Position numbers and translations under genes: made by a program. The notes beneath the pieces are model-generated. The model was given only the letters and a program-made list of their open reading frames with translations. It was not told the DNA's origin and did not search any database. 22,856 bases of DNA, taken from the IMG/VR virus record IMGVR_UViG_3300040788_000044, positions 1 through 22,856 of that record; one strand, 5' to 3'. Below, one piece after another: positions 2,740 to 21,726 of the stretch (the stretch's first letter is position 1; the number at the start of each line of letters is the position of its first letter). The stretch is from a virus.

Positions 2740-4046
2740 GCTTGGCGGGATACCGTCTTTCGGCGGCAGCAGCGGCGGCAGCGGCGAAACAGGACGCGCA
2801 AATCAGCAACGCGACTGACAGCGCGGCGGTTGTCTCTGGACCGAGCGACGTGTTCGAATGGTTCGGCGGGGGAGGGAGTGCCGCCGGCATGTCCGTCACT
2901 CCTGAAACAGCGATGCGTTCGTCGACGGTGTGGCGATGCGTGACACTGATCAGCGGAGCGATGATGTCGGCCGTCCTCGGGGTCTATGAGCGCCTGCCCG
3001 ACGGCGGGCGGCGACCGGTTCCAGATCACCCTTATAACCGTTTCCTGCAGCTCGAGCCGAACGACGACATGAGCGGACCAGAGCTGATCGAACTCGAAGC
3101 GATCGCCATGCTGCTGCGCGGCAATGGCTATGGCTTGATGCGCGTCGAGCGGAACGGGACGATGACCGGCATCGACTATTTCCACCCGATCCGGGTGATG
3201 CCGTTCCGTTCGTCGGACCGATCGGTCTGGTACCGGTTCACGAACGAGGACGGGACGACCGAGGACCATCACAATAGTTACGTGCTGCACTTCCGTGCGC
3301 CCGGACGCCATATCGACGGCATCCGCGGCTTGTCGGCCATCAGCTATCATGCCCAGTCGATCGGCATCAATCTGGCGACCCGCGAGTACACGTCCGGCCA
3401 GTTCGAGCGCGGGCTGCTGACCAATGATTATTTCTCGTTTCCCGAAGGGATAACCGAAGAGCAGCGCGCCGCGTTCAAGGAGTTCCTGCGACGGCGCGCC
3501 GCCGGCGTGATGAACTCCCACAACCCGCTGCTGCTGGAACAGGGGGCGGAGTGGAAGCGCGTTTCCGTCTCGGCGAAGGACGCGCAGCTGCTCGAGCTGT
3601 TGCAGTATTCAGTCGTCGACGTCGCGCGCATTTTCGGCGTGCCGCCACACATGGTTGGCGAGACTTCCGCGGCGACGACCTGGGGAACGGGCATCGAGTC
3701 GATGACGACCGGCTTCAAGCTGTTCACCGTGATGCCGCACATGCGACGGTTCGCGAAGGAACTAACCCGAAAGCTGTTTCCGATCTCCGGCGCCAAAGTA
3801 TCCAGCCTGTTCATCGATTTCGACCCCGACGCCATCCAGGTCGGCGATGCAAAATCCCAAGGCGAATATTTCAGCCGGGCGCTCGGCGGCAACCAGCTGC
3901 CGGGCTGGATGAGCCGTAACGAAGTCCGCCGGGCGAAGAACCTGCCACCGATCGATGACGGCGACGAAGTTTATTATCCGACGGGCGCAGAGCCCGCCGC
4001 CCCCGATGCGCGCCAGACATCGGCGCCGAACGAACCCGAGGAGTAG
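2736..4046 (+). CDS. Portal protein (HK97 family)
   Basis: This protein forms the dodecameric ring at the capsid vertex through which DNA passes and to which the neck attaches. At 436 residues it is usual for HK97-type portals. Diagnostic stretches are STVWRCVTLIS near residue 63, LLRGNGYGLM near 127, DVARIFGVPPHMVG near 295, and SRNEVRRAKNLPPIDDGDE in the C-terminal clip region. The N-terminus carries a run of eight alanines after LSA, in a probably disordered arm. The GTG start overlaps the terminase stop by four bases, so the two are translationally coupled. The C-terminal end is Pro/Glu-rich and probably flexible. Confidence 0.97.
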   Translation: MSLAGYRLSAAAAAAAAKQDAQISNATDSAAVVSGPSDVFEWFGGGGSAAGMSVTPETAMRSSTVWRCVTLISGAMMSAVLGVYERLPDGGRRPVPDHPYNRFLQLEPNDDMSGPELIELEAIAMLLRGNGYGLMRVERNGTMTGIDYFHPIRVMPFRSSDRSVWYRFTNEDGTTEDHHNSYVLHFRAPGRHIDGIRGLSAISYHAQSIGINLATREYTSGQFERGLLTNDYFSFPEGITEEQRAAFKEFLRRRAAGVMNSHNPLLLEQGAEWKRVSVSAKDAQLLELLQYSVVDVARIFGVPPHMVGETSAATTWGTGIESMTTGFKLFTVMPHMRRFAKELTRKLFPISGAKVSSLFIDFDPDAIQVGDAKSQGEYFSRALGGNQLPGWMSRNEVRRAKNLPPIDDGDEVYYPTGAEPAAPDARQTSAPNEPEE

Positions 4047-7985: not shown

Positions 7986-8441
7986 ATGGCGGATGATTAT
8001 GTGGAAGGCGTCGTCGCCTCCAACGAAGAACTATGGCTGACAGATGGTTCGGACACGCTGACCAAGCTGCTCGGCCTCAAGGAGATCAAGGAACCGAGCT
8101 ATATGGTCGAGGAGCAGGAGGACACCGACATGGAGTCCGGCGGCACGAAGACCTATCTTGCCGGCCTAGGCGACTGGACGACCTTCCAGGCCGTGATCAA
8201 GCACCGCCCCGGCAGCGCAACTCACCAGCTGATCGAGGAGCATCTGCTGAGCAAGCAGTATCGCGCCTTCAAGGTGGTGCTGCGCGCCAATAATGCCGGC
8301 TCCACCGTCGACGGCGAAGGCGAAATTCTTCTGCTAGGCTACGACAAGCCGAGCCGCGCCCAGGGCTCGATCAGCAATGCCACGCTGACCGGACGCGTGC
8401 GGCGCTACACCGAAGACGCGCCCGTCGCGCCGGCGGCCTAG
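7986..8441 (+). CDS. Tail tube protein
   Basis: This major tail protein, 151 residues, would polymerise in rings to form the tube of a long non-contractile tail. It starts ADDYVEGVVASNEELWLTDG and contains TKTYLAGLGDWTTFQAVI and a C-terminal strand SISNATLTGRVRRYTED, consistent with phage tail tube beta-sandwiches. A strong AAGGAG lies eight bases before the ATG, in line with high expression. It sits directly before the tail chaperone pair, the usual order. No Ig-like decoration domain is present. Confidence 0.88.
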   Translation: MADDYVEGVVASNEELWLTDGSDTLTKLLGLKEIKEPSYMVEEQEDTDMESGGTKTYLAGLGDWTTFQAVIKHRPGSATHQLIEEHLLSKQYRAFKVVLRANNAGSTVDGEGEILLLGYDKPSRAQGSISNATLTGRVRRYTEDAPVAPAA

Positions 8442-8443
8442 GC

Positions 8444-8887
8444 ATGGCGAACGCTTTTGAGGGAACCGCCGAATTCGAGTTCAGCGGCAAACCCTATCGC
8501 CTCACCCTGAACAACCGGGTGCTGATGGAGGCCGAGGACGTCCTCGGCTATTCGGCACTCGACGCGGCGGAGGAAGCAAAGGCGGCACTGGCGGCAGGCC
8601 GCAACCCGATGCTGCGCACGGTCATCGCGCTGTTCTACGGGGCGCTGGTCCAGAACCACCGGGAGGTCACGCAGGACCAGGCAATCGACATGTTCATGTC
8701 GGACGATCCGGCCGCGCAGGATGCGTTCAAGGCAGTGCTGCGGGGGACCGAGCCGCCCGCTTCGGTCGCGTCTAAAGCGGGAAACGCTCCGGCGGCGGCC
8801 ACGACGCCAAAAACGAAGCGTGGTGCTGGGAAAGGCTCTTCAAGGTCTGGCGGCGCGCGGGCTTCGCGCAGGAAGAGTTCTTCCTAG
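8444..8887 (+). CDS. Tail assembly chaperone, G-like (zero-frame product)
   Basis: The 147-residue product resembles the gene-transfer-agent gp10-type chaperone family. It opens ANAFEGTAEFEFSGKPYRL, a beta start with a conserved aromatic. Helical segments follow: VLMEAEDVLGYSALDAAEEA, a helix LRTVIALFYGAL, and DQAIDMFMSDD. From about residue 106 the zero frame becomes Ala/Lys/Ser/Arg-rich low complexity up to its stop, while the conserved-looking continuation is in the -1 frame. This is the arrangement of lambda G/GT: the short form binds the tape measure, and a minor frameshifted form recruits tube subunits. It starts three bases after the tail tube gene. Confidence 0.87.
   Translation: MANAFEGTAEFEFSGKPYRLTLNNRVLMEAEDVLGYSALDAAEEAKAALAAGRNPMLRTVIALFYGALVQNHREVTQDQAIDMFMSDDPAAQDAFKAVLRGTEPPASVASKAGNAPAAATTPKTKRGAGKGSSRSGGARASRRKSSS
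8807..8815 (+). promoter_or_regulatory. Probable -1 frameshift site (G to GT chaperone)
   Basis: The zero frame reads CCA AAA ACG and contains a run of five A. The Lys-tRNA on AAA 8810-8812 can slip one base back onto a perfect AAA at 8809-8811. It is not the canonical two-tRNA heptamer, since ACG would not re-pair well as AAC. The last stop in the -1 frame is at 8773-8775, so a shift between there and 8887 enters the downstream frame. Other slippage positions are possible but none has re-pairing as good. Confidence 0.6.
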
Positions 8888-9150
8888 CAACGCCGCGCTC
8901 GCTGCTCCTTTCACTATCGGGAGCGATGGAGCGTAGCGAGGCAGACGAGCGGCGGACCGCGTTCGGGGCCTGGCTCGGCGGACTGCTCGGCGGAATGTCC
9001 GATCCGAAGACTTATCCCAAGTTCGAAGAGCTGATCCCGCCGCCGGACGAAGCTGCCGAGACGGCACCGGAACCGGACGGCAAGCCGGAACCGGAAGCCG
9101 AAGCCGTCGGCGCTAAACTGTGGATCATGTATCTGAACTCGAAGCCTTAG
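8812..9150 (+). CDS. T-like C-terminal extension of the tail chaperone (made by -1 frameshift)
   Basis: In the -1 frame, the segment reads CWERLFKVWRRAGFAQEEFF, then LATPRSLLLSLSGAMERSEADERR, then a Pro/Glu-rich tail to TAG at 9148. The WxRLFxxWRxxGFxxEEFFxxTPRxLxxxL pattern matches the second tail chaperone of gene-transfer-agent-like tails (gp10.1 type). No ATG or GTG occurs in this frame between its last stop (8773) and 8926, which is after the conserved part. Expression by frameshift fits better than an independent start. A fusion of about 235 residues would result. A shorter product from ATG8926 would lack most of the family motif. Confidence 0.78.
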   Translation, partial: NEAWCWERLFKVWRRAGFAQEEFFLATPRSLLLSLSGAMERSEADERRTAFGAWLGGLLGGMSDPKTYPKFEELIPPPDEAAETAPEPDGKPEPEAEAVGAKLWIMYLNSKP

Positions 9151-9178: not shown

Positions 9179-12097
9179 ATGTCCAGCGGAGCCATCGCGC
9201 GGATGAGCGCGCATCTGGAATGGAACCTTAGCGATTTCCAGCGCGGCACGGTCTCGATCGAGAACGCGTTCAAGTCCGTCATTGGCCTCGCCGGTAAGAT
9301 GGCGGACGTCGTCGCAAACGCCGGAAAGCGGATGACCGTCGGCCTGACACTGCCGATCGCGGGAATCAGCGCATTGGTGGTGAAGGCCGCGAGCGATGCG
9401 GAAGAGCTTCAGTCGGCGTTCGACCACACCTTCGGGAAGATGTCTCAGGACATGAACCGCTGGGCGGCCGAGTCCGGCGACGCCATGGGGCGCGCCACGC
9501 AGGAAATGCAGGAAGGCGCGCTCGCCTTCGGCCAACTGTTCAAGGACGCCGCTCCGACGGAAGCAGCGGCAGCCAGGCTGTCGCATAAGTTCACGGAACT
9601 GGCGCAGGACGCGGCCAGTTTCTACAACACCGACTTCGACACCGCGATGGGTAGAATCCGCTCCGGGCTGACCGGAGAGGCCGAACCGCTGCGTGCCTTC
9701 GGCGTGTTCCTCAACGAGGCGGCCGTACAGTCCAAGGCGCTGGAGATGGGCCTGATCACGTCCGGGCAGGAGCTGGATGAGTACGGCAAGATAATGGCCC
9801 GATCGGCCCTCATCGCCGAAGGTCTGGTCGACGCTCAGGACGACATCGAGCGGACCTCGGGAAGTCTCGCCAACCGCATCCGCAAGATCAAGAGCGACTT
9901 TCATGAGCTAGCGGTCGAGATCGGCGAGTATCTGGAACCTTACGCGCAAAAGCTCGCCGCAATCGTCGAGCGGCTTGTCGGATGGTTTCGAAGCCTGCCG
10001 GAAGGAGTAAAGCGCGCGGCGGTCGGGTTCGGCGTGTTCCTGGCCGCCCTGGGTCCGCTCTCGATCGCACTTTCATTCATCGCGATCACGCTGCTGCCCC
10101 TGTTCCTGGTCAATATGGGACCGGTGATGCTGGCGATCAGCGCGATCGTGAACCCGATCGGCACGGTGGTGGCCCTGCTTGCCAAGTTCGGACTTTCCTG
10201 GACGGCCATTTCGACCGCGCTGAAGACCGTCCTGCCGCTCTTCCTGCGCATCGCCGGTCCGATCGGCGTCGTCATCACCCTGCTCCAGCTGTTCGGCGGC
10301 AATATCGCCAACGGGCTCAAGCTGTTCTGGGATCGCGTGAAAGAGGCAGTGGGGCCGGCGGCCGAGCAGCTCTGGGTGGCGATGGTCAATGTGGTCGAAC
10401 AAGTCCGCCTTGCGTTCGAAGACCTGCAGTCCTCGAAGCTTGGCAATTTCCTCTCGTTCGTGGCGGAGAAGGTCGGCCTGCTCATCGAGGTTGTCCTCGA
10501 GATGGCAGGCTACCTTGCAGGCTTTGTCCTGTCGGGAATCATCACCTTCGCCACCAACCTTGTCGACACAGTCGGGGGCGCAATCGAGTTCGTTCGGAAG
10601 CTTTTGACGGGCGACTGGTCAGGAGCGTGGGACGCCGCCGTCCAGACGGTCGGGCGGGCCGTGATCAGAATTGGCCAATGGGTGTCCCAGCTCTGGCCGT
10701 GGCTTGGCGGGCTCATCGAAATGCTTGGGCGTTTGACCGGAGCGGAAATCACCGCGCCCGAGGCGCCCACCCGCTACACCAAGATTACCGATCTGCGGAC
10801 CAAGGGCGAGGACGGTGGCCGCAATTACGGGACCGGCGGGGCCGGCAGATCATCGCGGTCGGCCGCGCGTGGCGGTCCAAAAGGTCCGTCAGCCGATGAG
10901 CTTGCCGAACGGCGCGAAGCCATCCGTCTCGAACACGAGATGACGCTGGCCCGTGAGAAAGGCGATCTTGAGGCGATCCAAGCGCTCGAACGACAACGCG
11001 ACCTTCGCGACATGATCGAGCGATACGAGCGCGCCGGGCTCTCGAACATCGAGGCCATGCTCGCCGCGGAACGCGACATGCAGGAAATCGACCAGGCCCG
11101 CATGGCTGCGCGCGAGCAGAAGCTGCGCGACCTGCGCATCGAAACCGAATACCGCGTCGCCGAACTGAACGACGATCATGCGCATCTGCGCTACCTCGAC
11201 CGTGAATACGAACTCGAAGACCTCATCACCGATCTGCGCCGGGAAGGTTACGATCTCGCCACGGCGGAACGCATCGCACAGGCCAGCCTGCTGCAGATCG
11301 AAGAGGCTCGTGCCCAGCAGATGCAGCGCCGGCTCAGCGATCAGAAGCGCGCGCACGAGATGGAACTGGCCCGGCTGCGCGGAGACAGCGAGGACAGCCT
11401 TCGGCAACGCGAGGAGCAGCTCCGCTACCGCGACCGCGTGGAGGAACTGCGGCGGACCGGCCTTGACCGTGTCGAAGCCGAAGATCGGGCGCGCGTGGAG
11501 GGCCTGGAGCGCGGCAAGGCGCATATGCAGGGAACGTTCCGGGACGCGTTCCGGGACGGTCTGCAGTCGGCGCTCAACGGCGACCTGAAGGGTTTCTTCG
11601 AAAACTGGATGAAGGACCGGACCTTCAAGGCGCTGTCGGACACGCTCGACAGGCTCGCTGACAGCCTGGCGAACCTGATCTCGGGTAACCGCAACGGCAG
11701 CGGCGGGGGCGGGCTGCTGGGTAGTCTTTTCGCCCTGTTCGGAGGTAGCAAAGGTTCGAGCGCGCCGACCGACCTGTTGGGCGGCACCCCTTACGGCGCG
11801 CCGGGTTTCAACACGGGCGGACGGTTCACGGTCAAAGGCTTTCCCGGCATCGACAAGAACCTGTTGTCGCTGAACGGGCGGCCGATCGCGCGCGTCTCCA
11901 GGGGCGAGATCATGAACATCGAGCGCGGCGAGCGAAAGGCGGCCCCCAAGGTCGAGAAGCATTACCATTTCAGCGGGAACCTGATGACGCCGGAGTTCTG
12001 GCAGCGCATCCAGGCGGGTGACTACGCCGCCGCGCAGCAGGGCGCGCAGTTGGCGGGGGCAAGCGCCTCCTTCTCAAGATCGAGGCGGCTGGGATGA
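9179..12097 (+). CDS. Tail tape measure protein
   Basis: This 972-residue protein sets tail length and helps DNA ejection. ATG9179 lies seven bases after an excellent GAAGGAGG; a TTG in frame upstream (9158) is not needed. Layout: N-terminal helices with KASDAEELQSAFDHTFGKM (conserved in tape measures), then a strongly hydrophobic block at about residues 280-370 (FLAALGPLSIALSFIAI and similar) that could cross a membrane, a Gly/Ser linker near 550, a long Arg/Glu-rich coiled-coil region (about 570-790), and a Gly-rich C-terminus. C-terminal parts include FNTGGRFTVKGFPGIDKN and RVSRGEIMNI, known from tape-measure C-termini. It follows the chaperone pair and overlaps the next gene by four bases (ATGA). 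Confidence 0.95.
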   Translation: MSSGAIARMSAHLEWNLSDFQRGTVSIENAFKSVIGLAGKMADVVANAGKRMTVGLTLPIAGISALVVKAASDAEELQSAFDHTFGKMSQDMNRWAAESGDAMGRATQEMQEGALAFGQLFKDAAPTEAAAARLSHKFTELAQDAASFYNTDFDTAMGRIRSGLTGEAEPLRAFGVFLNEAAVQSKALEMGLITSGQELDEYGKIMARSALIAEGLVDAQDDIERTSGSLANRIRKIKSDFHELAVEIGEYLEPYAQKLAAIVERLVGWFRSLPEGVKRAAVGFGVFLAALGPLSIALSFIAITLLPLFLVNMGPVMLAISAIVNPIGTVVALLAKFGLSWTAISTALKTVLPLFLRIAGPIGVVITLLQLFGGNIANGLKLFWDRVKEAVGPAAEQLWVAMVNVVEQVRLAFEDLQSSKLGNFLSFVAEKVGLLIEVVLEMAGYLAGFVLSGIITFATNLVDTVGGAIEFVRKLLTGDWSGAWDAAVQTVGRAVIRIGQWVSQLWPWLGGLIEMLGRLTGAEITAPEAPTRYTKITDLRTKGEDGGRNYGTGGAGRSSRSAARGGPKGPSADELAERREAIRLEHEMTLAREKGDLEAIQALERQRDLRDMIERYERAGLSNIEAMLAAERDMQEIDQARMAAREQKLRDLRIETEYRVAELNDDHAHLRYLDREYELEDLITDLRREGYDLATAERIAQASLLQIEEARAQQMQRRLSDQKRAHEMELARLRGDSEDSLRQREEQLRYRDRVEELRRTGLDRVEAEDRARVEGLERGKAHMQGTFRDAFRDGLQSALNGDLKGFFENWMKDRTFKALSDTLDRLADSLANLISGNRNGSGGGGLLGSLFALFGGSKGSSAPTDLLGGTPYGAPGFNTGGRFTVKGFPGIDKNLLSLNGRPIARVSRGEIMNIERGERKAAPKVEKHYHFSGNLMTPEFWQRIQAGDYAAAQQGAQLAGASASFSRSRRLG

Positions 12098-19823: not shown

Positions 19824-20804
19824 ATGGGCGCGTTCGCCAACAGGGTGAAGGTCGCGACGAGCACCACGGGAACCGGACCCGTGACGCTCGGCGCGGCCGA
19901 GCCGGGCTGCCAGACCTTCGCGGCCGGGGGCGTGGGCGAGGGGCAGCTTGTCTCATACCTGATCGAGGACGGGCAGAGCTGGGAGATCGGATCCGGCTGG
20001 CTTCAGGCCGGCCAGCAATTGTCGCGTGGGATCAGGCAGTCGTCGACCGGTGCGCTGCTGAACCTTTCCGGAAACGCGACGGTGGCCCTGATCGTCTCGG
20101 CCCGCGACATGGACGGGGCGATGCAGGCAATCGGTTCGCCCATGTGGTCCTATCACAAGGCTTACGGGCCGCAATCGACGTCCAGGATAACCGTCGGCAC
20201 GGCGAATGCGAGCATACAGGGAAACGAGACTTCCCACGACCCCCGTGTGGCAGGCCCCGCCCTGCAACAGGTAGGAATCACCTATACCGCAAATGACAGC
20301 GCAAGCTCGCGCGCCGGTCTCTTTCCCAACGCAAACGCATTCATTCTTGTCCCCGGCTTCCGGTTCATCTCACAATTCACCATCCTTCAAACGCCGCCGA
20401 CCTACCAGCTTTTTACCGGCGGCTCAGGCAACCCGGTGATGACCGAGCCTTCCTCCCACAGCAATGCCGTGGGCATCGCCAAGGACAGTTCGGACACCAA
20501 CTTCCAGCTTCTCGGTCGGGGAGCGGGGGAAACGCCCATCAAGTTCGATCTCGGCCTCGCCCCGGTGGTGGGCGGGTTATACGAGGCGAGGCTGTGGGTG
20601 GACACGCCGGGGGTATTCGAGGGCAGCATCCACCGGCTCGACAACGGCGACCATGCGCGCACCGGCCGTATCCTGACCGGCGTGACGACGCCAGCCCGCG
20701 CGTATGGACCGTCGACATTCCTCGGGCACAACAGCACTCACGCAACGCCGCCCGCCAGCTTGCTGTTCATGTTCCACGCATTCAAGAACGGACTGGTGGT
20801 CTGA
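19824..20804 (+). CDS. Tail fibre-like structural protein
   Basis: 326 residues. The N-terminal ~100 residues ([59 protein letters not shown]) match a small domain often found at the start of phage fibre and tip proteins. Then follows a longer unique region rich in Asn/Ser/Gly/Pro with many turns (for example [19 protein letters not shown]), probably the C-terminal host-facing part. I cannot name the receptor or fold. It lies between a small structural gene and the repeat gene, so it probably belongs to the tail fibre set. Confidence 0.82.
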
Positions 20805-20808
20805 CGCC

Positions 20809-21726
20809 ATGATCGGTTCCAGCCCCATAGGGCGCCATCCGATCGGCTTTGCGGGCGGCCAAGCGCCACCGCCAGCGGTAGTGCAGGCGAGCGCCGCAGG
20901 CTTTCTCGGCCTTGGCGGGTCCGCCACTGCCAAGGCAGCGGTTACCGCCGGGGGGGCGGGCACGCTCGATCTTGCCGGGGCAGCGCAGGGCCAAGCGGCC
21001 GTTACCGCTGGCGGCGCGGGATCGCTCGGCCTTTCCGGCGCGGGCGATGCCGATATCCTGGTGCGTGGACAGGGCTCTGGCGCGCTCGGCATTAGTGGGA
21101 CCGCCACCGCCGGGACGGCGGCGCAGCCGGGGGCGAACGCCAGCGCGGAAGGGAGCCTGTCCCTTACCGGGAGCGCTGAAACCACCGCGCGGATCGCGGC
21201 GGGGGGGAGCGGATCGCTCGATCTTGCCGGTTCGGCGGCGGGCGACGTCCAGCTACGCCGTGCGGCCAGCGGGGGGATGACGCTTGGCGGAGACGCTTCG
21301 GGTCGGGTGCTGGCGAGGGGCGAGGCCGAGGGCACGCTGTCACTCACCGGCGAGGCCAGCGCCAGCGGCAAGCAGGTTACCACGGGCAGCGCGCAAGGGG
21401 GACTTTCTCTTGACGGAGCGGGGGCGGCAAGAGTGCGGATCGGCGCGGCGGGCTCAGGCACCCTTGGCCTTGATGGAACCGCCACCGCAGGGGCAGGCTC
21501 ACGCGGCGAAGCAAGCGGCACGCTCGATCTTACCGGTGGCGCGGAAGGCAAGGCCCGGATCGAGGCGACGGCGGCGTCGGGACTTTCGGTTACCGGGACC
21601 GCGCGGGCCATCCGGGCGGGGAGGATCGCGCTCGTTACCCCTCCGCGCCGCACGCTGCTGGCAAGGCAGCGCAGCCGAACGCTCGTTCCCCCGCCGCAAA
21701 AGAGCCGCGTGATGGAGATGCACTGA
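20809..21726 (+). CDS. 20-residue repeat protein, probable fibre
   Basis: 305 residues, composed mostly of Gly, Ala, Ser, Thr and Leu. After a short head (IGSSPIGRHPIGFAGGQAPPP), twelve units run from residue 24 to 269. Ten have exactly 20 residues, one has 24 and one 22. The core is GxGxLxLxGxA, for example AGGAGTLDLAGAAQGQA. A basic tail (RRTLLARQRSRT) closes the protein. Such a regular pattern suggests a beta-solenoid or a fibrous trimer shaft. ATG20809 is preferred over upstream starts that overlap the previous gene. There is no signal peptide or membrane segment. The function is not known; its place after the fibre gene suggests virion use. Confidence 0.8.
   Translation: MIGSSPIGRHPIGFAGGQAPPPAVVQASAAGFLGLGGSATAKAAVTAGGAGTLDLAGAAQGQAAVTAGGAGSLGLSGAGDADILVRGQGSGALGISGTATAGTAAQPGANASAEGSLSLTGSAETTARIAAGGSGSLDLAGSAAGDVQLRRAASGGMTLGGDASGRVLARGEAEGTLSLTGEASASGKQVTTGSAQGGLSLDGAGAARVRIGAAGSGTLGLDGTATAGAGSRGEASGTLDLTGGAEGKARIEATAASGLSVTGTARAIRAGRIALVTPPRRTLLARQRSRTLVPPPQKSRVMEMH
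20878..21615 (+). repeat. Twelve-unit 60-base repeat array in coding sequence
   Basis: Codons 24-269 of the repeat gene break into twelve units with a 60-base period (units 2 and 3 begin at 20938 and 20998). Shared DNA stretches such as GCTCGATCTTgCCGG recur (near 20968, 21211 and, with a variant, 21522). Unit 5 has four and unit 9 two extra codons. Units diverge at DNA level, so the array is not a fresh expansion. Confidence 0.85.

Follow-up and report, generated by a model that had tools for sequence, protein, structure and literature searches.

A conserved GGGAAAC heptamer and a probable -1 frameshift in the tail assembly chaperone gene of an uncultivated siphophage-like virus

Tail genes of the virus record

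The stretch of DNA analysed here (the window) comprises the 22,856 bases of an IMG/VR virus record (IMGVR_UViG_3300040788_000044). Its genes follow a siphophage-like head-tail order of terminase, portal, protease, capsid, connectors, major tail protein, chaperone region, and tape measure. The features of the tail region are listed below.

7986-8441, + strand: major tail (tube) protein gene (Pfam Phage_TTP_11 and PHROG major tail protein)
8444-8887, + strand: gene G, tail assembly chaperone, with a zero-frame product of 147 aa (PHROG 2115, AlphaFold, and gene order)
8773-8775, + strand: TAA, the last stop of the -1 frame and the upstream limit for a slip
8779-8785, + strand: candidate slippery heptamer G_GGA_AAC (P-site GGA to GGG, A-site AAC to AAA)
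8785-9150, + strand: putative T extension in the -1 frame (domain conserved in five lineages, PHROG 19318, and Phage_TAC_6 in relatives)
8444-8785 joined to 8785-9150, + strand: predicted GT fusion of 235 aa
8786-8887, + strand: dual-coded overlap of the basic G tail (frame 0) with the start of the T domain (frame -1), from substitution phases
8809-8813, + strand: A-run put forward as slip site by a sequence-only reading; not conserved and rejected in that role
9179-12097, + strand: tape measure protein gene (PHROG; start and ribosome site from sequence)

The major tail protein gene product matched the PHROG major tail protein with an E value of 5.8e-6 and Pfam Phage_TTP_11 with one of 1.4e-4, the latter short of the curated cut-off. 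The best PHROG tape measure match of the 9179-12097 product had an E value of 1.9e-25. Its start is probably ATG 9179, located after AAGGAGG, while the mechanical ORF call gives TTG 9158 instead. Locally, the major tail protein gene is followed by G, GT (through the T extension), and the tape measure gene; the chaperone gene is flanked by the same two genes as in lambda-type G/GT pairs. Elsewhere in the window, an ORF at 20704-21726 contains imperfect 43-nt repeats and is rich in Gly, Ala, and Ser.

The zero-frame product of G matched the tail family PHROG 2115 (E 3.6e-7), and the PHROG tail family was matched by all eight aligned G proteins. The AlphaFold model of G exhibited a mean pLDDT of 70 with disorder in the final 40 residues, and it resembled predicted phage tail assembly chaperones at a modest E value of about 1e-2 and a probability of about 1. 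Matches of the model to PDB folds were weak (best Z 4.0), and no match to solved structures was obtained with the G sequence.

The open -1 frame and its domain

Beginning at 8776, right after TAA 8773-8775, the frame at -1 to G stays open up to the stop at 9148-9150. It overlaps the 3' end of G without a start of its own, as the second frame does in lambda-type G/GT pairs. The sequence-only reading had described this frame as lacking ATG and GTG before ATG8926, quoted the peptides ERLFKVWRRAGF and TPRSLLLSL from it, and proposed that it is reached by a -1 frameshift yielding a G/GT pair. Both peptides were found in the frame, in which ATG8926 was confirmed as the first start codon, TTG being absent upstream as well. 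The sole near-cognate codon ahead of it, CTG8902, is located within a conserved domain (T) with the motif WxWE...TPR...DPKTYP.

The T domain of the window matched PHROG 19318 (E 1.8e-5). It matched none of the Pfam or NCBIfam models, falling short of the curated cut-off of Pfam PF09550 (Phage_TAC_6). Short stand-alone proteins served to define both Phage_TAC_6 and NCBIfam TIGR02216 (rcc01693 family). Among the T-domain relatives, L009 and L011 matched these families, L009 with 25.1 bits against Phage_TAC_6, above the Pfam cut-off of 23.4; counting E values up to 1, four of nine T domains did so, that of the window not being among them. Alignment to its relatives would place the T domain of the window in Phage_TAC_6. 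A structure model of T (pTM 0.45) gave no structural match below an E value of 0.04, and comparison of the T sequence with solved structures returned a chance-level match only.

Relatives were sought by their G protein or T domain; the heptamer itself did not serve as a query. Four further lineages were identified, L002 through G and L003 (with the near-identical L004 and L005), L016, and L017 through T. All five lineages, including the window, are uncultivated virus records, and the four relatives come from other metagenomes. Their identity to the window was 45-65% for G and 36-54% for T. Scans of a genome contigs collection found no relatives, and among plasmids and named phages searched by G or T there was no convincing one. 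In L002, L003, L016, and L017 alike, the T domain lies at the same position in the -1 frame of G, as the sequence-only reading had expected of related phages, and none has an independent start at the domain.

These comparisons bear on whether T might be a separate gene, started at ATG8926 or a non-standard codon or reached by re-initiation after G. The corresponding downstream gene of Tetraselmis virus S20 is indeed annotated with its own ATG. However, a start at ATG8926, within the conserved domain, would drop the W-x-W and TPR motifs; no ATG, GTG, or TTG precedes it in the -1 frame of the window, and L017 has none ahead of the domain. Moreover, the bases before ATG8926, TCACTATCGGGAGCG, contain no more than a weak GGGAG, 5 nt from it. 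A separate gene is highly improbable.

Between the window and L003, 58 of the 109 changes 3' of the G stop hit the third base of a -1-frame codon (p 1.5e-5); past the G stop, this frame evolves as coding sequence. In the overlap (8786-8887), substitutions were spread evenly over the codon positions of both frames, unlike in the flanking parts, so that the two frames are not separable by phase there; both are constrained. The G stop occupies the same column in the window, L002, and L003, kept via the Leu codon CTA, which accounts for 2.7% of the Leu codons of the window.

A single -1 difference could also arise from an indel, G and T being one frame broken by a one-base sequencing error or mutation in the contig. 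Yet four independent relatives from other metagenomes share both the frame relation and the in-register heptamer, which refutes an error, and the G stop column is kept through the rare CTA codon; this explanation is hardly credible.

In the window, the G tail behind the heptamer (34 codons, 8786-8887) is rich in Lys, Arg, and Ser and overlaps the T domain. Those of the relatives are alike, with 34-41 codons. It is conceivable, though doubtful, that this basic tail is a selected functional segment lying over the T domain, in which case G and GT would carry different C-terminal arms and G would be no mere truncation.

GGGAAAC in five lineages

A scan of gene G for in-register XXXYYYZ heptamers revealed exactly one, G_GGA_AAC at 8779-8785. 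It begins 3 nt past the -1-frame stop TAA and about 30 nt upstream of the A-run, and such an X_XXY_YYZ heptamer in register within the overlap is a feature of lambda-type G/GT genes. The predicted genes of the window, 6,847 codon steps in all, contained only five in-register heptamers with Y = A or T. The chance of one in a stretch of 34-37 codons is about 0.025-0.03, and that of GGGAAAC about 0.005. A GGGAAAG at 8828 was considered as well and rejected as off-register.

GGGAAAC occurred in all four relatives, in register and at the corresponding position (L002 3327, L003 2467, L016 1959, and L017 1974), so that both the heptamer and the frame relation are kept, as in lambda-type pairs. The codon before the Gly-Asn of the heptamer varied among the five lineages (GCG, GAG, GTG, TCG, and GCG, encoding A, E, V, S, and A), its third base being G in every one. 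Likewise, the Gly was encoded by the rare GGA (16% of Gly codons) in five of five. Given the amino acids and the codon usage of the window, the joint chance of the kept G and GGA is about 3e-7 with the lineages taken as independent, a figure that is overstated, as the five share ancestry. As a control, elsewhere in G a single codon was kept at 4 of 29 invariant residues, and third bases were identical at 13 of 109. The heptamer and the frame stand beyond chance because they are conserved across five lineages. Direct observations comprise the open frame that lacks a start, conservation of both the T domain and the in-register heptamer, and the gene order.

The sequence-only reading had placed the slip at the A-run, perhaps as a less studied single-tRNA event rather than one at a canonical two-tRNA heptamer. 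The run of five A at 8809-8813 with an in-frame AAA at 8810-8812 is present as described; it falls within the open -1 frame, and A_AAA would permit re-pairing of tRNA-Lys in that frame. However, the conservation expected of the run was absent: between the heptamer and the G stop, L003, L016, and L017 have no run of at least four A, and L002 has AAAA. With the canonical GGGAAAC upstream of the run and in register in all five lineages, a single-tRNA slip finds no support, and the A-run is very unlikely to be the slip site.

A lambda-type frameshift in the tail chaperone gene

Judged from sequence comparison, G of 147 aa and GT of 235 aa are very probably produced by a lambda-type programmed -1 ribosomal frameshift at GGGAAAC. 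Most ribosomes would translate G alone (8444-8887). In a minority, the tRNA-Gly paired to GGA and the tRNA-Asn paired to AAC (8780-8785) would slip by -1 onto GGG and AAA, and translation would continue in the -1 frame to 9150, yielding GT. By analogy with lambda, the tape measure protein would be coated by G, and GT, the rarer form, would recruit the major tail protein through its T part. That ribosomes slip, how often they do so, and what roles G and GT play are inferred here.

Single folds and a consensus fold gave no conserved downstream RNA structure at the usual spacing (z-scores +0.8 to -2.1). A weak stem in the consensus fold covers the codons for WxWE, about 35-50 nt downstream. An upstream Shine-Dalgarno-like stimulator was not conserved among the lineages. 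Stimulatory RNA structures are frequent at frameshift sites but not universal (PMC3483164).

The frameshift of the window most likely belongs to the conserved tail-chaperone -1 frameshift of lambda and many long-tailed phages. The slip heptamer of lambda is G_GGA_AAG, its last base being G where that of the window is C. Both systems lie between the genes for the major tail protein and the tape measure, and in lambda, likewise, ribosomes slipping by -1 on a GGGAAA-type heptamer towards the end of G give a minor longer form (mechanism reviewed in PMC5009743). In contrast to lambda, G of the window continues for 102 nt (34 codons) past the slip, and the likeness is one of gene position and slip site. 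GGGAAAC itself is the predicted site of tail chaperone -1 frameshifts in Burkholderia phage KL1 (gp18/gp19, PMC3483164) and Caulobacter phage Colossus (PMC3556154), and it was reported for the G-T frameshift of haloarchaeal HCTV-1 (PMC5009743). The KL1 and Colossus heptamers are identical to that of the window, a likeness drawn on the slip site and not on the proteins. KL1 differs from the window in slipping immediately ahead of the gp18 stop and in having an additional gene before the tape measure.

The analysis corrects the slip site and provides annotation for an uncultivated phage group whose T domain escapes standard family models, and the nucleotide-level conservation of GGGAAAC in five lineages makes a useful comparative example; the understanding of tail-chaperone frameshifting is unchanged.

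Other candidate slip sites were observed outside the five lineages. In L009, a more distant relative whose G protein differs, the Phage_TAC_6 domain sits in the -1 frame, and an in-register A_AAA_AAG (2902-2908) lies right after the -1-frame stop. In Tetraselmis viridis virus S20 (NC_020840, L010), the gene before the tape measure contains an in-register C_CCC_CCG (3438-3444), and its -1 frame continues into the separately annotated next gene (3486-3791); this is probably a G/GT frameshift that annotation has missed. In a sister group, which likewise encodes this T domain in the -1 frame, GGGAAAC is replaced in register by GGGCCCT (L011 2490 and L019 1980) or, at the same place, by GGACCCT (L020). 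With C as Y, such a Gly-Pro site would be unusual for slippage.
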